Shown in pieces: positions 49,773 to 63,043 of a stretch of DNA of 64,000 nt. The notes under the pieces are model-generated. The model saw only the letters and a program-made list of their open reading frames with translations, ran no database searches and was not told where the DNA came from. Each line of letters begins with the position of its first letter. Position 1 is the stretch's first letter. The position numbers and the translations under genes are program-made. The stretch is from NCBI RefSeq assembly GCF_004343725.1, contig NZ_PTQW01000020.1, forward strand, positions 1 to 64,000, read 5' to 3'. The stretch comes from Treponema sp. J25 (GTDB lineage: Bacteria; Spirochaetota; Spirochaetia; Treponematales; Breznakiellaceae).

Positions 49773-50531
49773 ATGAAATGGCTTGATTTCCTTAAAACTG
49801 AAAGGGCTGCTCCTTTCTTAGTGCTGGGCATGCCCTTCGTCAGTCTCCTCGGAGGCCTCGCGGGTCTTATTGCGGGGGTATGGGGTGTGGTAAGTATAAC
49901 AGGTCTTATCGCTATTGTAACCTATGGATATGCACTGTACCGCTACCGCAAAAAGTCCGTATCCAACCCAGAAAACTTTGTGGAAGAGCATCCGGGACAA
50001 CCACAGGAAATTCCCCCCGATCGGATTGATCCCGTTACCGGCCTGGCTAACACCAATGGGCTCATGGCATGGTTTTCCGAAAGGGGGAAAAAACTTGCCG
50101 AGAATAACCGGGCCCTGATGATTCTTGCGGCGGACCTGGCAAACTACCAGGATCTTGTGCGAAGCAGGGGACAAAGCCAGGCAGACGCCATCCTAAAAGA
50201 AGTGGCAAGCCGAATTGCAACCTTTGCGGGGGCCGAAGGTATTGCCGCCCGTACGGGTAGCAATGAATTTGCGGTGGTGGCCACCATACTTCCCCGGGAT
50301 TCTCTGGAACTGGTGGCTGAGCAGGCAGGTAAACTGACGGAAGTCCTGCAGCGTCCCATCGAATATGGCGGTTCGGTAATCTGGATTGGAGGGTCGGTAG
50401 GGGCAGCCCGTGGGGGAGCCTTAGAAGGGCCAGCCATTCTTGAAAAGGCCCGGAAAGCCCTTGAAGAGGCAAAAAAAGAAGGAGCTGGTCACTACGTGGT
50501 TGCAGATTTTACGGGATCCCAGAAGGGGTAG
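49773..50531 (+). CDS. Membrane-anchored degenerate GGDEF-domain protein
   Basis: The 252-residue protein has two N-terminal transmembrane segments (about 14-58), then a GGDEF-like domain starting with DPVTGLANTNGLMAW. The signature GG(D/E)EF is RTGSNEF, so the catalytic glycine and acidic residues are changed and diguanylate cyclase activity is unlikely. It may bind GTP or c-di-GMP or act as a scaffold. No Shine-Dalgarno; the A/T-rich GATAGTAATTAAT just before ATG 49773 could hold the -10 of a leaderless transcript. Its 3' end overlaps the convergent pseudokinase gene by 23 bp. Confidence 0.8.
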   Translation: MKWLDFLKTERAAPFLVLGMPFVSLLGGLAGLIAGVWGVVSITGLIAIVTYGYALYRYRKKSVSNPENFVEEHPGQPQEIPPDRIDPVTGLANTNGLMAWFSERGKKLAENNRALMILAADLANYQDLVRSRGQSQADAILKEVASRIATFAGAEGIAARTGSNEFAVVATILPRDSLELVAEQAGKLTEVLQRPIEYGGSVIWIGGSVGAARGGALEGPAILEKARKALEEAKKEGAGHYVVADFTGSQKG

Positions 50532-52428
50532 TTTCGGTCCATACCCAGAAACAAAGAGGTCGCTCGAGAACAAAAGGAATGAGCTTTTGTATATAAGAGG
50601 CCAGGGAGCTATCCCATGCGATAGGGCACCACCACATCAAAAAGAGGGGTTTTCTCGGAGTGGAAAGGGGAACTAGACAGGAAGCCACCCAGCGGGGATC
50701 CTGAAAAATTTCTGAGCATCGTTGCAAAGAAAATGAACCATTCGAAGAAACAAGAGGAGAGGCAACTTTCGCCGTTGTCTCCTGTGTTTCTATCTCAGAG
50801 TTTTCACAGGCTTCTCTGAGAACCTTTGCAAGATGTTTTCGTTGTCGAGAGGATTCCTGGGCAAGAAATCTTTCTATACCCCCTACGAGGGAACGAACAA
50901 AATCAGGTACCGTAAGGGTATTTTCAGAGGGCGAGGCAGGTTCTATCACAATAAGCCTTACCTTTTGCCGAAACTGAGACCAAAAATCGGACGCCTCTAT
51001 AGTTTGTTTAAGAAAAAGAACATCGGACGTAACGATGAATCGTAGATCTCCCCGCCCAGAACGGGCCCGGCGTACTACCCCCTCGAGAACCTTTTCTATC
51101 TCCTGCAGAAGTACCCGATTCCGCTCCCAGCGAAATGCGATGAACTCTCCCTCTGACGAAGGATGCGCAAAAGGCATTCCCCCTTGCTCTACAAAAGAGA
51201 CCCGTTCGCTGGCTGAGAAAACTACACCATCTGTGGTCCCTTCCCGAGAAGAGGGGTTTTCCGCGGAGGGCAGCAAAGTCCCGCCGTTTATACCCCCTTT
51301 CTCCATGGTCCTCGTATCGGCTATTTCAGGGTCTTCCCAGCCGGAAGGAGGGGGCTCCTCCTTCGGATGGGGCCCCTTTTCTTGATGGGACAGGACCACG
51401 TTCTGCGGGGCCCTGGGGGGAAGGGATTTTAACGCCCTATTCTGGATTGGCGCTGTGGGCAAGACATTTTTTTCCTCCCCTTCATATCCATAACGGGAAC
51501 GATAGGTCTCTGAAAGGGCCTGAAAATAGTGGAGCACCTCTGTTCGGGGTTCCGATTGGGGCAGAGGATATCCCCCCTCTTGCACTAGGGTGGTCCCTCC
51601 TCTTTCCTTTTTATCACCCCCATCCCTTTCCTTTTGATAGCTATTGAAGGAACCATATGGTTGCACTATTCCTTGCTTTTCGCCCCAAGCTTCCAGATCC
51701 CGGATCATATCTTCCAGGGAACGATACCGTTGAGAAGGGTTAGGTTCGCTACAGCGAGAAAGAATGGCAAACAATTCTGGATGGAGGTATTCAGTCAGTC
51801 CAAAGAGGCGCAAGAGAGCCCCCAAGGAATAGATATCCCCCTCCACCGAAACTGCTTTGCCTTCCCGGATTTCCGGCGCCAATAAGGGTAAATCCTCAGA
51901 TCCTATCAGATTTTTTTGTAGTAAAAATGGGAGAAGCACCGCATAGCCCGGGGGAAGGAAAAAGAAATCCTCTGGCCGGGGGACTTTCTTTCGCACCCAC
52001 AGGCCCTCTGGCAAAAGCCCCCCCCAGTACAGCCCGTGGCTATGAAAAAAAGAGAGGGTCCGGGCAAGCCGCAGAGCAAGGGCAAAGAGAAATTTCTCAT
52101 CAAGAGGAAGGTCCGAGGGGACCACATCTCTTAAGGGAAGTTCATCCCGATATTCACTGGAAATCACCAGTTGGGTTTCTACGGTTTCTACCTCTACAAT
52201 AGGAATAATTCCTTCTGCCGAATAGTGATAGAGGGAGAAAATTTCGTTTTTTAACGCTCCAGTGCAATGATCAGGGACATCTTTTTTTAAGAACCGCAGC
52301 AAAAAACGATGGGGCGAATACATCGCCAGGGCAACCCACTGTTCAAAACAGGATGTATCGGATAATTTTTCCTGGAGGATATAGGTTCCCAGAATTTCAT
52401 CATGTGCGTGCCACATATCATTTTCCAT
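50509..52428 (-). CDS. Ser/Thr protein-kinase-like pseudokinase
   Basis: The 639-residue protein has a protein-kinase fold in its first 250 residues: FLLRFLKKD (beta-3 Lys, about 48), a Glu at about 62, LAPEIREG (APE motif), GDIYSLGALL (helix F Asp) and CSEPNPSQRYRSLEDMIRDL (split; subdomain XI). The catalytic loop that should read HRDLKPEN is YWGGLLPEG, so the catalytic Asp, Lys and Asn are all gone, and no DFG is visible. It must be inactive as a classic kinase. Residues 250-639 are a Ser/Pro/Glu-rich linker and an unrecognised domain. It is the last gene of an operon after three paralogues (gap 36 bp). GGAGGG precedes ATG 52428 at 12 bases. Confidence 0.8.
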   Translation of the reverse strand: MENDMWHAHDEILGTYILQEKLSDTSCFEQWVALAMYSPHRFLLRFLKKDVPDHCTGALKNEIFSLYHYSAEGIIPIVEVETVETQLVISSEYRDELPLRDVVPSDLPLDEKFLFALALRLARTLSFFHSHGLYWGGLLPEGLWVRKKVPRPEDFFFLPPGYAVLLPFLLQKNLIGSEDLPLLAPEIREGKAVSVEGDIYSLGALLRLFGLTEYLHPELFAILSRCSEPNPSQRYRSLEDMIRDLEAWGEKQGIVQPYGSFNSYQKERDGGDKKERGGTTLVQEGGYPLPQSEPRTEVLHYFQALSETYRSRYGYEGEEKNVLPTAPIQNRALKSLPPRAPQNVVLSHQEKGPHPKEEPPPSGWEDPEIADTRTMEKGGINGGTLLPSAENPSSREGTTDGVVFSASERVSFVEQGGMPFAHPSSEGEFIAFRWERNRVLLQEIEKVLEGVVRRARSGRGDLRFIVTSDVLFLKQTIEASDFWSQFRQKVRLIVIEPASPSENTLTVPDFVRSLVGGIERFLAQESSRQRKHLAKVLREACENSEIETQETTAKVASPLVSSNGSFSLQRCSEIFQDPRWVASCLVPLSTPRKPLFLMWWCPIAWDSSLASYIQKLIPFVLERPLCFWVWTETTPSGIP

Positions 52429-52464
52429 GGGCGGGCGGCCCCCTCCTTACCGCCCTTTACATTA

Positions 52465-53166
52465 CTAAACTCTGATTTCTGGCACGATAGGCTTTACCGC
52501 CCGATCTTCGTAATTCCCCCGCTCAAGGAGTATATCCGGAATGGCCTCGTTGAGTTGCTTGGTCATATCGAGGAATTTACCCCGGATGTTGTTCGCCTGC
52601 AGGGCCACATCCTTGATTTCCTCAGAGGGCATGGGTTTCTGGGGTTCCACCAGAGAGGCAATTCGATCCAGGGTAGTAAGAATCGTTCGGTTAAGGGGAT
52701 CCATCTGATTCTTCGATTTATCCAGGTGCTTACCCATGTTGTTCACATCGGTGACCGTTAAAGGATACAGGCGATACCCTTCTTCGGGCACCTGATAACA
52801 GAGGGTAATGAGTCCATAGATTATTTCCAGGGCCTTGGGATATATTTCGCCGGCCTTCCAGGTAGTAAGCATCCGGAAACATTCCCGCAACATAAAGGTG
52901 TTTGGCTGAATACTCCCCAAAAATTTAGCGGGCTCTTTATCTCCCACAAGGGCATCGATTACCCAGGGATTCCCCGATTCAATAAGTCTGAAAAACACGG
53001 GATAATTGTCAGGGGTAAGGCCCTGGCGATTTACCAGGTAATACGCAAAGCCCATCGCTGCAAAGGTACTGTATCCATCCCTACACTGGATAATATCGTT
53101 TAAATAAGAAAGCTCGAGGGCATCTATTTCAGTATCGGACCACAGGGGCCACGCTGCTTTTGCCAT
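52465..53166 (-). CDS. Paralogue A of an unrecognised ~235-residue family
   Basis: The 233-residue protein is soluble, mostly helical, without a signal peptide. It shares a common core with the proteins at 53258-54004, 54020-54718 and 56969-57724: DNYPVFFRLIESGNPWVIDA, L-G-IQPN, EIYPKALEI, GYRLYPLTVTDVNNMGKHL, LNRTILTTLDRIASL, ALQANNIRGKFLD and a final IPDILLERG. I recognise no family. I chose ATG 53166 because GGAGGTGAAC precedes it; the in-frame start at 53223 has none. It is the most diverged of the tandem three (K-N-Q-M-D-P in place of G-Q-D-D-P/L). Confidence 0.75.
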   Translation of the reverse strand: MAKAAWPLWSDTEIDALELSYLNDIIQCRDGYSTFAAMGFAYYLVNRQGLTPDNYPVFFRLIESGNPWVIDALVGDKEPAKFLGSIQPNTFMLRECFRMLTTWKAGEIYPKALEIIYGLITLCYQVPEEGYRLYPLTVTDVNNMGKHLDKSKNQMDPLNRTILTTLDRIASLVEPQKPMPSEEIKDVALQANNIRGKFLDMTKQLNEAIPDILLERGNYEDRAVKPIVPEIRV

Positions 53167-53257
53167 GTTCACCTCCTTGATTACTAAAAAAAGGGGAGGA
53201 GAGAAATTGTCCATACTTCTCACCCTCCCCCCATTGGTTCAGCCTCTGGTAAAAGGT

Positions 53258-54004
53258 TTAGCCGTTTGTTTCGGCCCCACTCCCTGCAGCCCGGGCAGCC
53301 CCTTCAACCTCCGCCAGGGGTTTCCGCTGCCGGGGCATTACATCCTTTTCAAGATTCGGCTCCAAACGGAGGAGTACTTCGGGAATGATATCCACCAGAC
53401 GTTTCTTTGAATCGAAGAAGTTATTCCTGATGTTATGGGCATGCACTGCCAGATCTTCCATGTCTTCATCCACGTTCTGACCCTCCAGAGAAGCAAGTTT
53501 GTCGAGAATATCCAGAATGCTGCGATTCAGAAGATCGTCCTGCCCCTTTTCTTCGTTTAGATGCTTACCCAGGGCATTCACATCCGCCACTGTGGGGGGA
53601 TAAATTTTGTATCCATCCAGCGGTGAATTGTAGGTGGTTTGGAACACACCCAGGATAATCCCCAGGGTTTTAGGATATATCTCGGCTTTCCGGTATTTAG
53701 TAAGAATAGAAAAACAGGTAGCCACAATAAAGTAATTCGGCTGGATAGAACTCATAAAGAGGAAGGGATCCCGGGTTCCCAGAAGGGCGTCTATGACCGC
53801 ATGGTTTCGCACCGTCAGGATATTCAAGAAAACGGGATAATTGCCATTGGTAATACCCGTAAAATTAAGATAGCTTGCGTAGGTAATAGCGGCTTCTACG
53901 GCCTCCACACTCCGGCAACCTAAAATTCCCTTGAGCATATTATATTCAATCTGCTGAACCTCCGCCTCGGTCCAGTCCTGTTTCTTTTCAAATAATTCTT
54001 TCAT
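53258..54004 (-). CDS. Paralogue B of the same family
   Basis: The 248-residue protein has the common core (NGNYPVFLNILTVRNHAVID, GTRDPFLFMSSIQPNYF, EIYPKTLGIILGVFQ, GYKIYPPTVADVNALGKHLN, LLNRSILDILDKLASLEG, HNIRNNFFDSKKRLVDIIPE) and its own Arg/Ala/Gly-rich C-terminal tail ending AGSGAETNG. GGAGGTGAAGG precedes the ATG, and it begins 15 bp after paralogue C, so they share an mRNA. Predicted cytoplasmic. Function unknown; see the findings for the link with kinase and phosphatase genes. Confidence 0.75.
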   Translation of the reverse strand: MKELFEKKQDWTEAEVQQIEYNMLKGILGCRSVEAVEAAITYASYLNFTGITNGNYPVFLNILTVRNHAVIDALLGTRDPFLFMSSIQPNYFIVATCFSILTKYRKAEIYPKTLGIILGVFQTTYNSPLDGYKIYPPTVADVNALGKHLNEEKGQDDLLNRSILDILDKLASLEGQNVDEDMEDLAVHAHNIRNNFFDSKKRLVDIIPEVLLRLEPNLEKDVMPRQRKPLAEVEGAARAAGSGAETNG

Positions 54005-54019
54005 CCTTCACCTCCTTTT

Positions 54020-54718
54020 TTAGTCCACATAGAGCATCCGTGGCGCCGTTTCCTTCGCCACATAGTCGGACTTAACCAGTAAGACCTGCGGAATAATATC
54101 TTCCATCTTTTTCCGCTTATCGAAGTAGTAGGTTCGGATATTATTCGCCTGTCGGGCCATTTGCTCTTTGTCGGGATCGTTGGAGGTTCCCGCGAGAGAT
54201 CCAAGCTTATCTAGAATATCCAGAATACACCGATTGTTAGGATCATCCTGACCAAGCTCTTTATTCAGATGCTTCCCCAGGTTATTTACATCGTTGATAG
54301 ATACCGCATAAATCTTGTACCCATCCTTGGGAGATGCATAGGCCGCCTGAAGGATACCCAGTACAATAGAAAGGGTTATGGGGTAGATACCGCCCGGATG
54401 CCAGTTGGTAAGGAGCTTAAAGGCCGTGAAAGAAAGATAACTGTTCGGCTGGATGGGACTTAAGAGCAGGAAGGGATCTTTCTTACCTACCAGGGTATCA
54501 ATTACCCAGTGGTTTTCAATCTCAAGCATCTTTAGGAACACCGGATAATTATCGTTATTGAGCCCCGAAAGACTTAAGAACCGGGCAAAGCTGATGGCCC
54601 CCTCCACCGCCTCCTCCGTCCGGGATGCCAGCATGTTTTGCAGGATCCCGAGTTCTACCTGCATGATGGTTTCTTTTGACCAGGTCCGCTCGATAACCCG
54701 TTCAGTTTGTTTGTCCAT
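54020..54718 (-). CDS. Paralogue C of the same family
   Basis: The 232-residue protein is the promoter-proximal gene of the tandem set. Core: NDNYPVFLKMLEIENHWVID, GKKDPFLLLSPIQPNSYL, GIYPITLSIVLGILQAAY, GYKIYAVSINDVNNLGKHLN, DDPNNRCILDILDKLGSL, QANNIRTYYFDKRKKMEDII. It is closest to B by eye. AAGGAGG precedes ATG 54718 and a near-consensus promoter lies about 45 bp upstream. No signal peptide or membrane segment. No known family recognised. Confidence 0.75.
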   Translation of the reverse strand: MDKQTERVIERTWSKETIMQVELGILQNMLASRTEEAVEGAISFARFLSLSGLNNDNYPVFLKMLEIENHWVIDTLVGKKDPFLLLSPIQPNSYLSFTAFKLLTNWHPGGIYPITLSIVLGILQAAYASPKDGYKIYAVSINDVNNLGKHLNKELGQDDPNNRCILDILDKLGSLAGTSNDPDKEQMARQANNIRTYYFDKRKKMEDIIPQVLLVKSDYVAKETAPRMLYVD

Positions 54719-54763
54719 TACAACCTCCTTGTTTCATCTAGAAGTGATGGCACATCCATTTAA

Positions 54764-54791
54764 AGTCTAAAACAGCAAAACGACCTGTCAA
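54764..54791 (-). promoter_or_regulatory. Promoter of the paralogue C-B-A-pseudokinase operon
   Basis: On the minus strand TTGACA (54791-54786), 16-bp spacer, TAGACT (54769-54764), directly after the end of the kinase gene at 54819. This gives the tandem paralogues their own start of transcription. Confidence 0.8.
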
Positions 54792-54818
54792 GAGGAAAAT
54801 CATAAATTTTCTGAGTTT

Positions 54819-55736
54819 TTAAAGCTTTCTTTTATGCATATCCAGAAAACTCTTTCCTAGGGCTGCGTATTCATCATCCTGGCAAGAAGGGGTCTCGCAC
54901 CGTGGTTTAAACATGCTTCGAAAATAGGAAAGCACATAGTCTCGGCGTTCAATCAGATGACGGGCTACCGTTTCTGCCCGATTTACTGGTTCATCACAAA
55001 AACCATCAAATACGATGAGTGCAAGCTCCCGAAGCTCTTCCAGGGTAATGGATTCAAAAGCGCTAAGACGACTGGAAAAATCTTCTATGGAAAGGCGTTC
55101 AAAGTTATCGGGCCGGAGAAGGGTTAGAAAACGGGTTTTTTCGGTCCGGATCCAGCCGAATTTTTCGGGAGTACCGGTAATTTTCATGTATTCCGCCAGC
55201 ATATCCGCCTTATCATAATCGATGGCTACAATAAACGGACGATTTTTAGTATTGGTAATAACAAGATAATTATTGGGATTCCGGTCTTCATCAAAATAGA
55301 TCCAGCGGTTAATCAAATCGAGCCGCAGGATACCGATAAAGGGCTCTTCCAGATAATCGTAGGAACTGATTTGCATGAATTTCTGAACCGCCTTAGTCGC
55401 CCGATAGGGCTTCCCTTCAATGTAAAGGGCAGTAGTGGGGGCCGCCAGCGTTCCCGTTCGGTGATCCAGGAGGTAGGCCAGTTCACAAGATCGATGAAAG
55501 AGCATCTCTTCTTTTGAAAGAACCGGCTTAATAAGCCACAGGTGATTCTCTTCGTCCCGGGCAGCAAGGTAACTTTTTACCTGGGCATTAAAAGGAACCT
55601 CATCTTGGGCAGATAAGAGGGTAAGATGCAGGTTGTTTAAAAAAAACCCCAGTTCTTTTGTGGTTCTATCCAAATAATAATATCGAATAAGTGATGGATC
55701 ACCAATTTCCTGGCTCAGTTGTTCCCTACTATCCAT
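54819..55736 (-). CDS. HipA/PI3K-like kinase, unrecognised subfamily
   Basis: The 305-residue protein has the marks of the HipA/PI3K branch of the kinase superfamily: Lys70 in LWLIKPVLS (ATP lysine), Glu85 in CELAYLL, the catalytic loop DEDRNPNNYLV at 149-159 (DRxxxN, Asp151 and Asn156) and the metal Asp173 in VAIDYDKAD. All key residues are present, so activity is plausible, on a protein or small molecule. The family name is inferred from these motifs only. I chose ATG 55736 because GGAGG lies nine bases upstream; the start overlaps the phosphatase stop (ATGGATAG), showing coupling. A C-terminal CETPSCQ pair of cysteines follows the kinase core. Confidence 0.7.
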   Translation of the reverse strand: MDSREQLSQEIGDPSLIRYYYLDRTTKELGFFLNNLHLTLLSAQDEVPFNAQVKSYLAARDEENHLWLIKPVLSKEEMLFHRSCELAYLLDHRTGTLAAPTTALYIEGKPYRATKAVQKFMQISSYDYLEEPFIGILRLDLINRWIYFDEDRNPNNYLVITNTKNRPFIVAIDYDKADMLAEYMKITGTPEKFGWIRTEKTRFLTLLRPDNFERLSIEDFSSRLSAFESITLEELRELALIVFDGFCDEPVNRAETVARHLIERRDYVLSYFRSMFKPRCETPSCQDDEYAALGKSFLDMHKRKL

Positions 55737-56727
55737 AGTAATACACCTCCGCCGGTTTAGGAATCGCAAAATGGACCACCAATTTCCCTTCTTCAAAAGT
55801 AAAATAGGGGGCCCTGCTCCCTGATCCCGAATACAAAATGTGATGGTTTTTAATACCTATCACATTCATCCACACCCCTGTCTCGTTACCATCGTTCCAC
55901 AGAGGATTATGCCCCACGATAAAGTGGGTATCCAGGGGCAATCCTAATAATTCAAGACAGAGACGAATATCCTTTTCGCCATATTCCTTAAGGCTCGGAT
56001 TCCCATGGAATTCGTTTACCCTATTCCACAAAAGCTGGTGTAATTTTTCAGGATATTTCTTGATATTGATAAGCTCCTCCCGAACAACACCACCCCGGGG
56101 GGGGCCCGCATGGGTAATAACGAAACCTTCTCCAATAATAAAAACCGGCAGACATTCGAAGAATTCCCCCACCGCTTCCGCATAGGCCTCGCCCTTTTGG
56201 GCAATGAGCTCATTTTTAAATTCTACCCCCTGGGAAATACCACTTTTTCGTAATCGTTCATCAAAAGAATCATGGTTCCCTCGAATATAATAAATCTGAC
56301 CAGGATACTGTACAAAAAGTTCAAAGAGGGCATCCAGAATAGCCACCGAGCTTTTCATGTCCTTCATATATCCGGTTCGGTCATCATGCAGAATGTCTCC
56401 AAGAAAAACACATGCGGCTTCTCCTTTTTTTAAATCCTCGCGATTCGTACCATGGTCCAGAATTTTTTGAAGGTTTTCTAGATTTGCATGAAGGTCCCCA
56501 ATAATAATAGGTTTCTTATTCTGTGGGAAAAGAACCAGACCTCCCGGCTTACCTTCCTCATCAAGAAGCCGTCCTGACAGGTTATTGATACAATCAATCA
56601 CATAACGAACAAGGGGCACTCCAGACAGTGGGACACCTTCGATGGTACTACTGGTCCCTTTCCGGTTTTCCTTGGTTTTTGTAGTGGTAAGAGGAGCTTC
56701 CATTCCAAGATTCTTTTTTTTAGGCAT
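55729..56727 (-). CDS. PPP-type metallophosphoesterase (Ser/Thr protein phosphatase-like)
   Basis: The 332-residue protein carries the full metallophosphoesterase set in order: GDLHAN (77-82), GDILHDDR (110-117), RGNHDSF (149-155), THAG with His206, and GHNPLW (272-277). GDxH-GDxxxDR-GNHD is the PPP phosphatase signature, so dephosphorylation of phosphoproteins is plausible; a cyclic nucleotide or nucleotide substrate is possible. A 25-residue basic N-terminal tail precedes the domain. AGGAGG lies eight bases before ATG 56727. The kinase start is within its stop region, so the two opposing activities are made from one mRNA. Confidence 0.85.
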   Translation of the reverse strand: MPKKKNLGMEAPLTTTKTKENRKGTSSTIEGVPLSGVPLVRYVIDCINNLSGRLLDEEGKPGGLVLFPQNKKPIIIGDLHANLENLQKILDHGTNREDLKKGEAACVFLGDILHDDRTGYMKDMKSSVAILDALFELFVQYPGQIYYIRGNHDSFDERLRKSGISQGVEFKNELIAQKGEAYAEAVGEFFECLPVFIIGEGFVITHAGPPRGGVVREELINIKKYPEKLHQLLWNRVNEFHGNPSLKEYGEKDIRLCLELLGLPLDTHFIVGHNPLWNDGNETGVWMNVIGIKNHHILYSGSGSRAPYFTFEEGKLVVHFAIPKPAEVYYYG

Positions 56728-56968
56728 CGAATTATCCTCCTGGGGGTACCTAAGTATCTATTCGGTCCGGAAGAAAGGCTTTTTTCCCTTTCTTTTCAAC
56801 GTCCCCCGGATTTCCCCGCCCCTTCGGTACAGTAAAAAGGTGGGGAGAAGCCGACTTCTTTACAGTCCCCTCATTCAATAGGATAGGTCTTCGGCGTCCC
56901 CGCCTTTTCCCTTTGTCCCCCCTGAGATTCCCCCTCTCCCAGAGGACTGGCTCGTTCTTTCCTCGTTT

Positions 56969-57724
56969 TTAGGGCTTTTCTTTCACAAACCTTCCCCGGG
57001 CATCCCGACGTCGTTCTTTTCGTTTCTTTGCCAGTTCTTGATAATCCTCTTCAGGGGGGACCCCCAGCCTATCGGGAACCCGCACCAGGAGGGGTTCCGG
57101 AATAGCATCGACCAGGTCCCGGGTTTTATCAAAATAGGCGTAGCGGACACTAAAGGCCTGCTGAGAAAGGATGTTTTTGTCCGGCTCAGGGTAATAGCGA
57201 CCTATTTGACTTAACCTATCAAGAATATCAAGAATCAAGGCGTTGAGGGGATGGTCCTGGCCTTCATTTTTTAAAAGGAATTTACCCAGTGCATTGATGT
57301 CCATAATGGTGATACGCCTGAGGCGATAACCATCATCGGGATCAAAATAGGCGTTCTGGATAATTCCAAGAAAGGCTAACAGGGCGGGGACATAGATTTC
57401 GTCGGGGTGACGGGAAAACAGGGCTTCGAAAGCCGCATCTATCAATTCTTTGGTGGGTAAAATGGTGGAAAACAGGAGCCGGGGTTCCCGATCGTGGAGC
57501 AATTCATCCACGACCCAGGGATTATTGGTCATGAGGAGACGCATAAAAAGCCAGTAATTATCCTGGTTTATCCCCACCTTGCTCAGGTAGCGGGCAAAGG
57601 CAGCGGAGGCTTCTACCTGAACCTCGGTAGTACAGCCAAAGAGGGCATCGCGAATTTGAATGGCATGTTCCCGGATCAGCTTTTTATCCATTTCCAGGAG
57701 TGAAAAACCGCTTTTTAGTGGCAT
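56969..57724 (-). CDS. Paralogue D of the same family, with basic C-terminal tail
   Basis: About 251 residues from ATG 57724. The core is shared with paralogues A-C: QDNYWLFMRLLMTNNPWVVD, DREPRLLFSTILP, EIYVPALLAFLGIIQNAYFD, GYRLRRITIMDINALGKFLL, GQDHPLNALILDILDRLSQI, YFDKTRDLVDAIPEPLLVRV. It is the most distant member and has a Lys/Arg-rich tail (AKKRKERRRDARGRFVKEK). The start is uncertain: no candidate (57724, or in-frame 57835 and 57691) has a good ribosome site, and 57724 gives a length like the others. It is 241 bp upstream of the phosphatase gene on the same strand. Confidence 0.7.
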   Translation of the reverse strand: MPLKSGFSLLEMDKKLIREHAIQIRDALFGCTTEVQVEASAAFARYLSKVGINQDNYWLFMRLLMTNNPWVVDELLHDREPRLLFSTILPTKELIDAAFEALFSRHPDEIYVPALLAFLGIIQNAYFDPDDGYRLRRITIMDINALGKFLLKNEGQDHPLNALILDILDRLSQIGRYYPEPDKNILSQQAFSVRYAYFDKTRDLVDAIPEPLLVRVPDRLGVPPEEDYQELAKKRKERRRDARGRFVKEKP

Positions 57725-57835
57725 AGGGTGCTGCTCTATAGTACTTGTATCGGCACAAAGGGCCTCTCGGTTAAGGGATGCCTGCGAACAACCCTCAGAA
57801 AGAGGAGGGATCATCACCTGGGGCCCCCCTGCCAC

Positions 57836-58351
57836 AAAGGAACTGACCGAGCGGTCTTTCTTTCAGGAATGGTATGGGGTTCATTCTTCGCCCCTTCCAG
57901 GGAGCGAGAGGGGCTTCCCCCGGCCATGCTATAGAGGGAGGGGCACCCCTTTGCCCCTCTGGAAGGAATAAAAGGATTCGTTGCATGTGGTTTGCCCGAT
58001 GGATAGCTCATATTATTAATTGTGAACAAAAATGGTACATCTGCAAGGGGGGAAATAAAAATGATTGGCCCCAGCAAAGCCAAAAAGGCACCCCAAAAGT
58101 CCTAAGGGCCAAGAAAGCCCCCCGGTACATCGGAGCCACCGGAGAGGAGTCCGCCGGCCTCGACATAGGCCGGCGAAATCAAAAAAGGGAACAACAAAGG
58201 TCCCCCGGTACTTCGGAGCCACCGGGAAGGGGTCCGGCTCCCTCAAGGTGCTCCGGCGTGGCTAGAGGGGAGAGCACGGCCCCAATCAAGCGAGGCCAGA
58301 AGGAAGGCTCACCGGAGCATTAGAATGCTGGGGAAGGACCCTGTCTGTTAT
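57836..58351. other. GC-rich gene-free spacer with a 24-bp repeat and hairpins
   Basis: No convincing gene. The 24-bp sequence CCCCCGGTA(C) ... GAGCCACCGG occurs at 58119-58142 and 58202-58225 with one mismatch; each copy can fold into a short hairpin (CCGGT/ACCGG arms). Between them, CGCCGGCCT (58152-58160) pairs perfectly with AGGCCGGCG (58167-58175). The block is downstream of the giant lipoprotein gene on the minus strand and could hold its terminators or a structured RNA. Open frames across it (for example 57874-58323 plus) are Arg/Gly/Pro-rich and lack ribosome sites. Confidence 0.55.
58119..58225. repeat. Pair of 24-bp near-identical direct repeats
   Basis: Copies at 58119-58142 and 58202-58225, 83 bp apart start to start, differing only at one central base (A/T). 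A perfect 9-bp stem with 6-nt loop (58152-58175) lies between them. Confidence 0.8.
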
Positions 58352-61300
58352 TTATGGTCTTGTCTTTGTGCCCCCATCATTGGTAATACCGAACATGAAG
58401 GAGCCTCTATTCACTCCCTGAATTGTTGCATAAAGACTACTCTGCAAGGTCCTGCTTTCTCCCGGGAAAAGAGGATAGTACTCCTTAAAGGGAACCCAGG
58501 CATTTTTCCCCCAGCCCCAGGTTTTGGGTCCATAATTAGTGGCTTCATTCACATCGGTGGGGGTGGTGCCCAGCAGGAGCCCCACATAGGCGGTAGTATT
58601 AATATCCCAGGAGACCCAATACCAAATACTATTCCCTGTGGGATCCCCCGAGGCCAGTGTCATAAGCCGGATTCCTCCGTAATCATTTTCATCCCAGGAA
58701 AGAGGGAAGCCGGGAGTTAAAACCGAACCAGTTACCGCATCTCCTCCCCGCACCCAGGGCTGCTCAACAAGAGTATCGGAATATCCCTGGGCTGCAGTAG
58801 GATTAAGGCTCACCGGCCCATCATTATTAAAGCGAAGCACCGAACGGTAGGCCTGTTCCCAGGCATCACTGGACCATACCCCATCTTTGTAGGCCCGTGC
58901 TCTAACTCGATACTTAAGGCCCTGAACGAGATCGGTAGCGCTTCCAATGGTAAAGGAAGCGGTATAGCTCGTACTGCTAGTGGTGGGTTCTGCAGGAGCA
59001 GGAGGCCCTGCTTGAGCTGTTGGTTTCACACCATCGGTATTGATGTTTGGATCTATCGGCTGAGTGGCATACCAGGCAGAACTTTCGGTGTAATACACGG
59101 TGGCCCCTGGCGTACGGCATTCCATTTTTATCTGAGCCGTTAATGGCTGGCTTGCCCGTACCACACCGTTTGTAAGCGCCAGGGTTTCCCGGGATTTCCG
59201 GATCCTGATAATCGGGGCTTCTACTCCCTCTGGGGTAATCTGGAATCCCGAAGTTACCGCGGGATTCGGCCGAGAAAGCTGATCCACCACAAGCCCCGCA
59301 GGTAAAAGAAGATCATAGACAACTCCTTTAACCGGAAGGGCATAGGAACCCGCCAGGGTGATAGTAAGGGTATTTCCACTGCGGACCACGGCGCTCGAAA
59401 GGACAGGGATACTTACGCGATGTTCCCCCGCCGCTCGCAATACCGTTCGCAGGTTCGCATCAGTAATATCCGTGTTCCAGTCAAGGACATACTTCGCATC
59501 CAGATCAGGACCAGTTTCGGTAGCCCCATTGGTTCCCCGTTTGTAGGCATTCTGGAAGGTCGTCAGATTTGCGCCAGAAAGACGATTTGCTAATTCGGTA
59601 TATCGAGCTTCTGAAAGAACTGCAGGAACCCGATAGGAAACTTCAGGAATCTCCAGGGTAAGGGAACCACTTCCTTTGTAAATAGGACGGTTAAAGGTAA
59701 GGGTCAGGGTAGTTCCGGTAAGCGTAGCAGAGGTTAACAGGGGAACCCCCGTTACTATTTCGATAGTCCGCTGTTCCGCCAGGGTCCGACCACTTCCTGC
59801 AACAGGCAAGGTGATATAACTCGTAACCTCTGTACCAGTACTATCCATAAAATTTGTTCCTTGTGGAATTACAAGAGAACTTACATTCAAAGCAGCAGCG
59901 GCATCCCCTTCCTGGACAGTATAGCTGAAGGTAAGGGTGGTGGTACCGCTACCGCTCTCGTAACTTGCACTCCGAAGGGGGGTCGTATTCAATTGCAACG
60001 AAGGATTCCCTCTAACGGTAATGGGTTTGCGGAAATTCAGTTTAATATCAATGACCGTCCCTGCTCCATACCGTCCATCCGCCAGGGGAGTGGTTACCGA
60101 AAGCAGCAAAGGATCCTTATCGACTATGACTACTATAGAACTACTTGCCGGCGAGATATTCCCCGCCTGATCTGTCTGTCGGGCCGTTATGGCATATTCC
60201 CCATTGGAAGAAATAGTCACCACCCCCGTATAGGTCTGCCAGTGCCCTCCCCCATCAGTGGAATATTCAAGGGTGGCCCCGGATTCACCACTTACGGTAA
60301 AGGTCTGCGCCGCATATTTTGTGCCCCCTGTAATACCACTTATCGTGGGATTCGCCGGAGCGGTGGTATCAATCACTATAGATTTATCGAGGGAGCCTCC
60401 CCCCTGGGGGGTAAAGCTATTTCCGGCCCGATCTTTAATAGTGGCCCCGTTGAGTTCAAAGGCCGTTACGGCAAGGGCAGCAGTATTCTCCCCTGCCTGC
60501 ACGGTATATATAAACAGATACCACTGATCACTCAATTTAGTACTATAGGTAGCCACCGCATTGGCCCCACTGGATAACCTGAGACGGGGCGATCCGCTTA
60601 TCGTTACGGCCTCCGAAAATTCCACTTGCAGGAAGAGGGTTTTGTCCGCATTATAGCACCCCGCCGAACTAATAGCTTTATAGGGCTGGGTTGCCTCCAG
60701 GGTAGGCGCAATTGTATCTATACACAGGGACTTTCCACCCGCCAGGGAATTAACCCCCGTGGGAAGCGTCATAGACGTAGTTTTGCCACTACTGTCTTTC
60801 CATTGATGCCCCCCTGAAACAATAGCAGTCACATCCAGTTTCTCTACATTCGTGTCTCCCGCTGCAACGGTATACTGGAACACATGGCGAGCCGTACCAT
60901 TTCCACTAGAATACGAAGCGGTTCTCCCATTATTCAGGGTAAGGGTCGGATTTGAGGCGCCCCCACTAAAGGTAACATTTTTGTTAAAATCTAAATAAAT
61001 CGAAATAACCGTCCCCGCCGGGTAAGCCCCGTCGTCCTTATCGCTACTTATCCGAACCAGAACAGGATTATCGGTTTCCACTAAAAAAGACACCCGGTGT
61101 AGACCCTTATTACCGCCCCAGTCGCTTTGTTGAGCCTCAATAGTAGCCACCGCGCCAGCGGGAGGAACAATCTGATTGGTAGTCCAGGTATCATTGGTAT
61201 TTCTGGTAACCACAAAATTAGCTCCCCCCCACCGGACCTCAATCGGGCCTATCTTGTTTTTATCACTCCAGCGATCCGTAGAATCATCTTTCCAGGTTCC

Positions 61301-63031
61301 CGAAAAAGATACCGTATCGCCGACGCCCAGGGCCGGAAGAATTAAGGAAGAAGTTACATCATAATTAGTGATAGTTCCTCCCGAATGGACAGAAACTGTA
61401 TCAATTGTAAGTTCAGGGGCACTACGATCTCCCGGTACGTTTATCTGCTGGGTTCTTGTCTTTTCACTATTGTCTTTCGCCCATACCACAAAGGTCTGAT
61501 TCTCAAGTTTAAGGGTATTGCCATTGATCCCGAGATCTGAAAAAAGATTAAGGGAAAGGGAAAAATCTCGAATCACCCGACCTGCTTGAATTAAAGGATT
61601 CTCAAGGTTGGCAGCCCACACCTTGTTTCCCCTACCATCGATACCAACCTGGTTCCACCCCGCATAATTCCTATCCATGTACTTAAGGAGTTCTTCGCTC
61701 TGCTGGGATCCCGGTTTTATCCAGGCAATTTTTACCTGGGTAATTCCCGAATCATCATCGGCGGAGCCCCGAACCGTGAAGTTCCCGTTCGCATCACCAA
61801 AAAGGCTCTGGCTCGTATCTGGCTCAAGGACCGTGATATTGGGGAGCCCCACATCCTGAACGTAGAAATGACCTATCTTTACTGTTGATACCTCATCATA
61901 GATATCCGTACACCGGGCCTTAAGAGTATAGTTACCCATCTCATCCGGTACCGTAATGGACCAGGTTGTTGAACGGGGTGCTTTATTTGATAGATCTATT
62001 ACTTCTTCTTTTATAAGAGTAGTAGTTTGATAACGGTAGATTTCAACCCGAATTTCTTTGAGCCCATCGTCATCGTAAGCCTGCCCCTGAAGGCTATAGT
62101 TCGGCGCAAATTGGAAATTACCCGGATTTTCATCCTTTACGGGCAATACCACCCAGGGTTTGTCTGCCTCGGGCCAATAACAAAACCAGCCCTTACTCGC
62201 ACGTTCCCGGTTGTTTGCTTCGTCATATACATCCACAATTACCTGCAGGTAGGTTTTCCCTGTTACCACATTACCAGTAAGAGGCTCTTTAATTTCCGCT
62301 GGCGTAATAGCAAGGCTTCCACTCCGTTCTATATTTTGAAGGGTCTTCTCATAATAAATGGAATTATCTGTCGTACCGGCAAGCTGAAACACCAGGCTTT
62401 TCAGCTTGTTATTTTCAGCAATATTCCACGAAAAGGCGAGATCCCCATTAAAAAGCCGGGTAAGATTCACCGGATCTTCCAGTTGTAAAACGCCAAACCG
62501 ATCTTCCGGGCTTTGCCCCCCTAAAAGAACTTCTAACGAGGGAGTGTTTATAGTAAGAAGCGGGGGTGTTTTATCCACCACCACGGTTCGTTGCTGCACC
62601 GACTTGGAAGATACGTTCCCAAAGGCATCCCTGGAAGTAACGGTAATCACATACTCCCCCTCTGCGGAGTCACCCAGGGCTACGCTCGTTTCCCATTGGA
62701 CCCGCTTTTTATCCCCCAGGGCCTTCCCCGCCGTATCTGCTTGCCATGACCCTTCAGAAGAGGAGCGCCTCATCCAACCCGAATCCACCGCATACCGCCA
62801 CACCATACCCGGAAGCCGGTCTACAGTAATCTCCAGTTCTTTAAACTGAATATCATCTTCCACCACACCTTTTATCGTAAAGGTAGGTTGCACATTCTCC
62901 ATATAGGTCGGGCTGTGAATTTCCAGAACGGGCCCCGTCATATCTACCTGGGGCCCCAGGCCTACCACAAATTTACAGGCCCCCACGAGGAGGCTCAGGA
63001 TTATCAACGTACTGATAGAAAACTTTTTCAT
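58352..63031 (-). CDS. Giant surface lipoprotein with Ig-like and chitobiase-like modules
   Basis: About 1559 residues, lipobox LLVGAC (Cys19 from ATG 63031). The mature protein is a string of beta-sandwich modules: PVLEIHSPTYMENVQPTFTI (Ig-like) and relatives, then two or more modules of the type VRISSDKDDGAYPAGTVISI / ATYSTKLSDQWYLFIYTV / LSVTTPLADGRYGAGTVIDI with a following FTYTV(A/Q)-GD segment, a PTISGITGGTKYAAQTFTVS module, and C-terminal chitobiase-like (MECRTPGATVYYTES) and terminal (LTPGFPLSWDENDYGGIR ... IWYWVSWDI) modules. This is typical of spirochete surface adhesins or matrix proteins; ligand unknown. AGGAGG lies five bases before ATG 63031 (63034 is also possible). It follows the partial gene at 63044 by 12 bp. 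Confidence 0.75.
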   Translation of the reverse strand: MKKFSISTLIILSLLVGACKFVVGLGPQVDMTGPVLEIHSPTYMENVQPTFTIKGVVEDDIQFKELEITVDRLPGMVWRYAVDSGWMRRSSSEGSWQADTAGKALGDKKRVQWETSVALGDSAEGEYVITVTSRDAFGNVSSKSVQQRTVVVDKTPPLLTINTPSLEVLLGGQSPEDRFGVLQLEDPVNLTRLFNGDLAFSWNIAENNKLKSLVFQLAGTTDNSIYYEKTLQNIERSGSLAITPAEIKEPLTGNVVTGKTYLQVIVDVYDEANNRERASKGWFCYWPEADKPWVVLPVKDENPGNFQFAPNYSLQGQAYDDDGLKEIRVEIYRYQTTTLIKEEVIDLSNKAPRSTTWSITVPDEMGNYTLKARCTDIYDEVSTVKIGHFYVQDVGLPNITVLEPDTSQSLFGDANGNFTVRGSADDDSGITQVKIAWIKPGSQQSEELLKYMDRNYAGWNQVGIDGRGNKVWAANLENPLIQAGRVIRDFSLSLNLFSDLGINGNTLKLENQTFVVWAKDNSEKTRTQQINVPGDRSAPELTIDTVSVHSGGTITNYDVTSSLILPALGVGDTVSFSGTWKDDSTDRWSDKNKIGPIEVRWGGANFVVTRNTNDTWTTNQIVPPAGAVATIEAQQSDWGGNKGLHRVSFLVETDNPVLVRISSDKDDGAYPAGTVISIYLDFNKNVTFSGGASNPTLTLNNGRTASYSSGNGTARHVFQYTVAAGDTNVEKLDVTAIVSGGHQWKDSSGKTTSMTLPTGVNSLAGGKSLCIDTIAPTLEATQPYKAISSAGCYNADKTLFLQVEFSEAVTISGSPRLRLSSGANAVATYSTKLSDQWYLFIYTVQAGENTAALAVTAFELNGATIKDRAGNSFTPQGGGSLDKSIVIDTTAPANPTISGITGGTKYAAQTFTVSGESGATLEYSTDGGGHWQTYTGVVTISSNGEYAITARQTDQAGNISPASSSIVVIVDKDPLLLSVTTPLADGRYGAGTVIDIKLNFRKPITVRGNPSLQLNTTPLRSASYESGSGTTTLTFSYTVQEGDAAAALNVSSLVIPQGTNFMDSTGTEVTSYITLPVAGSGRTLAEQRTIEIVTGVPLLTSATLTGTTLTLTFNRPIYKGSGSLTLEIPEVSYRVPAVLSEARYTELANRLSGANLTTFQNAYKRGTNGATETGPDLDAKYVLDWNTDITDANLRTVLRAAGEHRVSIPVLSSAVVRSGNTLTITLAGSYALPVKGVVYDLLLPAGLVVDQLSRPNPAVTSGFQITPEGVEAPIIRIRKSRETLALTNGVVRASQPLTAQIKMECRTPGATVYYTESSAWYATQPIDPNINTDGVKPTAQAGPPAPAEPTTSSTSYTASFTIGSATDLVQGLKYRVRARAYKDGVWSSDAWEQAYRSVLRFNNDGPVSLNPTAAQGYSDTLVEQPWVRGGDAVTGSVLTPGFPLSWDENDYGGIRLMTLASGDPTGNSIWYWVSWDINTTAYVGLLLGTTPTDVNEATNYGPKTWGWGKNAWVPFKEYYPLFPGESRTLQSSLYATIQGVNRGSFMFGITNDGGTKTRP

Positions 63032-63043
63032 CATCGCCTCCTT

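Follow-up and report, generated by a model that had tools for sequence, protein, structure and literature searches.

A conserved, unnamed gene set of Treponema and its relatives probably codes for a phosphorylation-controlled protein assembly

Stressosomes are multi-subunit scaffolds that are phosphorylated by their own kinase, RsbT (PMC3556497, PMC6614362). The window analysed here, by which we mean the whole stretch of 64,000 nucleotides from contig NZ_PTQW01000020.1 of Treponema sp. J25, likewise codes for several paralogous scaffold-like proteins together with a kinase and a phosphatase. No description of this combination of a protein family with kinase and phosphatase genes was found in the open-access literature. 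An initial annotation had read the locus as seven adjacent minus-strand genes, in which four paralogues are substrates or scaffold subunits switched by the kinase-phosphatase pair, and all seven ORFs were found where it had placed them. What might such a gene set do? We conclude that it probably specifies a new phosphorylation-controlled protein assembly. More specifically, and with a probability of about one half, the paralogues (P0 to P3) would form an assembly with P1 and P2 as its core and P0 and P3 as subunits linked to the kinase (KIN) and the phosphatase (PPP), and reversible phosphorylation would set its state.

The four paralogues are coded on the minus strand at 56969-57835 (P0, as ORF, with ATG 57688 as the likely start), 54020-54718 (P1), 53258-54004 (P2) and 52465-53166 (P3, with ATG 53166 as the likely start within an ORF of 52465-53223). 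That they belong to one unrecognised family was confirmed by a full-length alignment with 44 invariant columns, in which P0, P2 and P3 are 38-48% identical to P1, far beyond chance; for P2 and P3 the assignment also draws on gene layouts and identity among relatives. No Pfam, NCBIfam or PHROG family was reached by P0-P3, and no Ser or Thr invariant across all four paralogues was found in the alignments, the latter a point against the assembly reading. P0 ends in a basic C-terminal tail, and its orthologues in loci of the window's type (group A) often carry a long basic one rich in Lys, Pro and Ala. In one locus (L056:9001-10329) P1 and P2 are fused in frame within one ORF of 442 residues, a single case in favour of the P1-P2 core that could be natural or an artefact of assembly.

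How strongly is each member of the set conserved? Compared with four relatives belonging to two families, the window's P1 is 87-92% and its P2 85-89% identical, and the comparison proteins EF-Tu and RpoB are 84-89% and 79-88% identical in the same relatives. The values then fall to 69-76% for P3, 65-76% for P0, 56-67% for PPP, 53-61% for KIN and 25-33% for the seventh gene, K2. At four-fold-degenerate sites the identity is at or near chance level throughout, as with EF-Tu, so the conservation of P1 and P2 reflects selection, and recent horizontal transfer as the cause of the high P1 identity was ruled out. Thus, with synonymous sites saturated, the conservation of P1 and P2 is roughly that of EF-Tu and RpoB, and the regulators evolve faster. 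Just before P1 stands a sigma-70-like promoter, TTGACA-16-TAGACT, at 54791-54764 on the minus strand. Of 18 group A loci, 17 keep the pattern TTGA[CT]...TANNNT ahead of P1, as do 7 of 14 loci of group B, whereas it precedes the other genes at only 1 of 85 starts; P1-P2-P3 thus have a separate conserved promoter. Codon adaptation, for which EF-Tu and RpoB were the only reference genes, ranks P1 and P3 near the top of the window's genes and K2 near the bottom. We infer that this pattern of conservation and expression fits an abundant core with many contacts and fast-evolving regulators.

The model of P1 (AF2 pLDDT 95) is compact, all-helical and solenoid-like. It comes nearest in structure to ARM/HEAT-type proteins and to the formin inhibitory domain, with Z values of at most 8.0 that are too weak for any family to be assigned; the Foldseek search gave no E below 0.1, and searches of PDB and viral structures gave no confident match. 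Since ARM-like solenoids are often adaptors, it may be asked whether the P proteins control KIN and PPP as adaptors or inhibitors, with the real substrate elsewhere, be it some other protein, a small molecule or a lipid. We regard this as possible though doubtful. P1 and P2 are far more conserved than the enzymes, unlike dedicated kinase regulators, and in some genomes they occur without KIN and PPP at all. The properties of the enzymes bear on the same question from both sides.

PPP (55729-56727, minus strand) has the motifs GDLH, GD..H and GNHD, in keeping with the PPP-type phosphatase that had been noted, and these are invariant in 30 sequences along with two further His (G77DLH, GD111 with H114, GNHD153, H206 and H273). 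It matches Pfam Metallophos at 7.7e-13 and is nearest by profile to the BSU1/PP5 Ser/Thr phosphatases, which speaks against the adaptor or inhibitor reading. Judged by metal-ligand motifs and profiles it is a PPP-type phosphatase, with predicted activity on phosphoproteins. In one layout comparison, the gene immediately upstream of KIN was PPP at each locus that has KIN. One locus has another PPP-type phosphatase gene (L060:13723-15126) next to the first, which is longer (467 residues) and runs in the opposite direction. KIN occupies 54819-55736 on the minus strand when read from its ATG, and 54819-55796 as an ORF from TTG. The homologues and the sequence indicate ATG 55736 as the start, so that, as had been annotated, the two genes overlap; the overlap of the KIN ATG with the PPP stop is 8 bases (ATGGATAG) and suggests translational coupling.

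KIN reached no Pfam, NCBIfam or PHROG family and gave no match to PDB at the sequence level. Its model (AF2 pLDDT 91.8) has CtkA as the best structural match (VIA Z 15.2, rmsd 3.7, 225 aligned), followed by PI4KII (14.9), Fam20C (12.6), CotH (11.7), HipT (11.4), actin-fragmin kinase (10.8) and HipA (10.7), in agreement with the HipA/PI3K-like fold first proposed for it. The catalytic motifs also held: D151-R-N-P-N-N, within DEDRNPNN, and I172-D173, of IDYD, are invariant in 33 sequences. KIN is therefore, on the modelled structure and motifs, an active-looking kinase of the PI4K/CtkA/HipA fold. Several kinases in this list act on structural proteins. KIN is structurally as close to the lipid kinases (PI4KII) as to the protein kinases, so a lipid substrate stays possible; this likeness to PI4KII as well as to CtkA favours the adaptor or inhibitor reading, as does the presence of a further pseudoenzyme, K2, in the set.

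K2 (50509-52428, minus strand) is a Hanks-type pseudokinase with a degenerate C-terminal domain. Its match to Pkinase is weak (2.3e-4, under the cut-off), and the destroyed catalytic loop that had been pointed out is a general feature, for the HRD and DFG positions are gone in all homologues of an alignment of 28 K2 sequences, which makes it an old pseudokinase. The C-terminus looks AAA_16-like in two homologues only (E 0.09-0.1), a weak hint of a degenerate STAND ATPase. The suggestion that this pseudokinase reads the state of the paralogues found no support: K2 is absent from the versions in SAR324/Deltaproteobacteria and from those with two paralogues, and it diverges fastest. At or near the P/K2 genes of several group A loci there is a GGDEF-domain gene (49773-50531 in the window; also L028, L029, L033, L041 and L072), and this may be merely a common chromosomal neighbourhood. 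On the other side, ahead of the set and on its strand, lies a gene (58352-63034) for a secreted putative lipoprotein of 1560 residues that is rich in repeats (Ig-like); it is not conserved among the relatives examined. Between this gene and P0, a 62-base direct repeat occurs twice at 58114-58258, with the copies 76% alike. No Rfam RNA was found within the window.

Is the set kept together in other genomes? A homologue scan with one genome per species found 47 loci, all in records that are MAGs; most are from spirochaetes, with a few from SAR324 and Deltaproteobacteria and one Vicinamibacteria record. Four layouts can be told apart. Layout A, that of the window, is P0-PPP-KIN-P1-P2-P3-K2 on one strand with small reorderings. 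In layout B, P1-P2-P3 face P0-PPP-KIN-K2, and next to P0 is the gene of a membrane protein, M. In layout C, PPP and KIN are faced by four or five P genes, and the spirochaetes also have M; in five genomes of SAR324/Deltaproteobacteria type with P and PPP, KIN is unlinked and lies elsewhere in the genome. Layout D has P1 and P2 only, without KIN. Layouts C and D lack K2, as do two loci of layout B, and the constant across all four is the adjacency of P1 and P2. M adjoins P genes in 14 loci of layouts B and C; its helical N-domain is followed by a long linker of low complexity, a single transmembrane segment and, at the C-terminus, a LysM domain recognisable by Pfam in three of these loci. No relative of M was found in the window's genome or in A-type relatives, where P0 often has the Lys/Pro/Ala-rich tail instead, and homology of its N-domain to the P family was rejected by profile comparison (probability 0.5%). 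In the SAR324/Deltaproteobacteria-type loci L070 (13415-14338) and L181-L186, a DHH-like gene that starts MRLLTRxDFDGL, with a weak DHHA1 match, stands beside or near KIN, or in L070 beside PPP.

The trees of P1 and PPP show the same main groups A, B and C, and the distance matrices correlate (r 0.92 for P1 and KIN, 0.94 for KIN and PPP), so the parts have largely been inherited together. Co-occurrence in other genomes had been proposed as a test of the annotation, and KIN was always accompanied by P. In a phylum sample of 296 genomes P is present in 10 and KIN in 8, all inside the 10 and from eight different families; in an order sample of 244 genomes the numbers are 21 and 16, with all 16 inside the 21. 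KIN without P was seen in neither sample. The naive p values of this overlap, 4e-21 (order) and 3e-14 (phylum), are too small since the genomes are related. Four P genes are present in 15 of the 16 KIN genomes of the order sample, the exception being a genome 64% complete, while between one and three P matches are seen in the five genomes of this sample that carry P but lack KIN, contig ends truncating some of them; KIN presence is thus associated with P-gene number (Fisher p 3e-4, again among related genomes). FliF is found in all 8 high-quality P genomes and undetected in two P genomes of Deltaproteobacteria type, which makes it uninformative on a link with flagella.

The HipA fold of KIN raises the question of a HipA-like toxin-antitoxin or anti-phage defence locus, the more so as K2 matches defence kinases of PADLOC, MkoA among them, in their STK domains (2.8e-9). 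We consider this very improbable. The purifying selection on P1 is at the level of EF-Tu, the parts are co-inherited, and P, KIN and PPP have no PADLOC match. In addition, KIN was absent from the phages, P1 from the plasmids, and P and KIN from the viral contigs searched; for the proteins tested, an origin from phage or plasmid was rejected on the same result. KIN has no match to the HipA family, no HipB neighbour was seen, and its fixed neighbour is PPP.

A further question of concern is what accompanies P1 and P2 where KIN is lacking. In five loci (L078, L079, L188, L189 and L190), P1-P2 are in an operon with an RsbW-like HATPase and two STAS proteins. The HATPase belongs to PF13581 (HATPase_c_2) with an intact N-box, ExxxNxxEH, and the STAS proteins keep Ser in the phospho-acceptor region. 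The operons also code for an FGE-like protein, an alpha/beta hydrolase and two unknown proteins (358 and 440 residues), and the most complete case, L188 (3483-12508), starts with a SpoIIE-type PP2C phosphatase (9.9e-46). The HATPase is present in 3 of 3 genomes having that flank and the STAS proteins in 4 of 4 having the other; contig ends cut off part of the operon in some genomes. In the unrelated, putative Vicinamibacteria MAG (L059), P1-P2 without KIN have an FHA-GAF-SpoIIE phosphatase two genes away and ScpA-ScpB on the other side. For the two-paralogue type P1 is 59% identical while RpoB is 79%, so transfer or separate lineages are still needed to account for it.

Two unrelated Ser/Thr kinase/phosphatase systems are thus found with one and the same P1-P2 core. 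No other finding argues as strongly that phosphorylation matters to the core, and the argument does not depend on homology between the enzymes. One may then think of a stressosome-like stress-sensing hub, in which the P proteins are sensor or scaffold subunits and phosphorylation frees a partner for a transcriptional output. The RsbW-like HATPase with its N-box and the STAS proteins agree with this, as does the general plan of the known stressosome as a scaffold of several subunits acted on by RsbT (PMC3556497, PMC6614362). Such a hub is unlikely, however: none of the P proteins scores above threshold with a STAS model, P1 is modelled as all-helical, the neighbourhood of the operon has no conserved gene for a sigma factor or an output regulator, and versions A, B and C have no identified STAS or HATPase neighbour.

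The phosphorylation-controlled assembly can now be outlined. The P proteins would form a hetero-oligomeric, helical (solenoid-like) assembly in the cytoplasm, with P1 and P2 as its obligate core and scaffold. P0 and P3 would be added subunits via which KIN and PPP set the phosphorylation state, with P proteins as the putative substrates, and this Ser/Thr phosphorylation state would act on formation of the assembly or on its binding of partners. The assembly may be tied to the envelope, in some clades, by the membrane protein with its LysM end in the periplasm, and in related genomes the same core would be run by the RsbW-like kinase and STAS proteins. The idea of scaffold subunits switched by the pair has accordingly gained from the graded conservation, from the promoter that P1 has to itself and from the STAS/RsbW swap, while the substrates and the complex, like a polymer state and an output, are what we infer. 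A wider and tentative view takes the P family as a new structural assembly class (filament, lattice or large scaffold) with a P1-P2 core, interchangeable phospho-switches (a HipA/PI4K-fold kinase with PPP, or RsbW/STAS, some with SpoIIE) and, in some clades, an anchor to membrane and peptidoglycan. What is new here is the conservation of P1 and P2, the P1-P2-P3 promoter, the membrane protein in other clades and the RsbW/STAS module on the same core. Unnamed proteins of uncultured spirochaetes that are as conserved as EF-Tu and recur with two unrelated kinase/phosphatase modules point to a widespread, undescribed cellular machine, and a substrate hypothesis is ready-made in a few small soluble P proteins together with their own kinase and phosphatase.

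Compared with known systems, KIN is like the group of CtkA, HipA, PI4KII, CotH, Fam20C and actin-fragmin kinase in fold, catalytic loop and metal-binding motifs, and differs in having no named sequence family and in its fixed partner genes. PPP is like the PPP-family Ser/Thr phosphatases (PP5, BSU1 and phage NinI) in metal-ligand motifs and profile matches, but it is divergent (GD..HDDRTG, GNHD), forms its own clade and is coded upstream of KIN. With the stressosome and partner-switching systems (RsbR-RsbS-RsbT-RsbX, RsbU-RsbV-RsbW) the gene set shares its kind of parts, and the two-paralogue relatives even carry RsbW-like and STAS genes beside P1-P2. The P proteins, however, are all-helical and not STAS, the KIN fold is HipA/PI4K and not GHKL, and PPP is not PP2C; a P scaffold without a STAS domain is thus not a member of the stressosomes. 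In its way of working, the system is closest to these stressosome and partner-switching systems (PMC3556497, PMC6614362).
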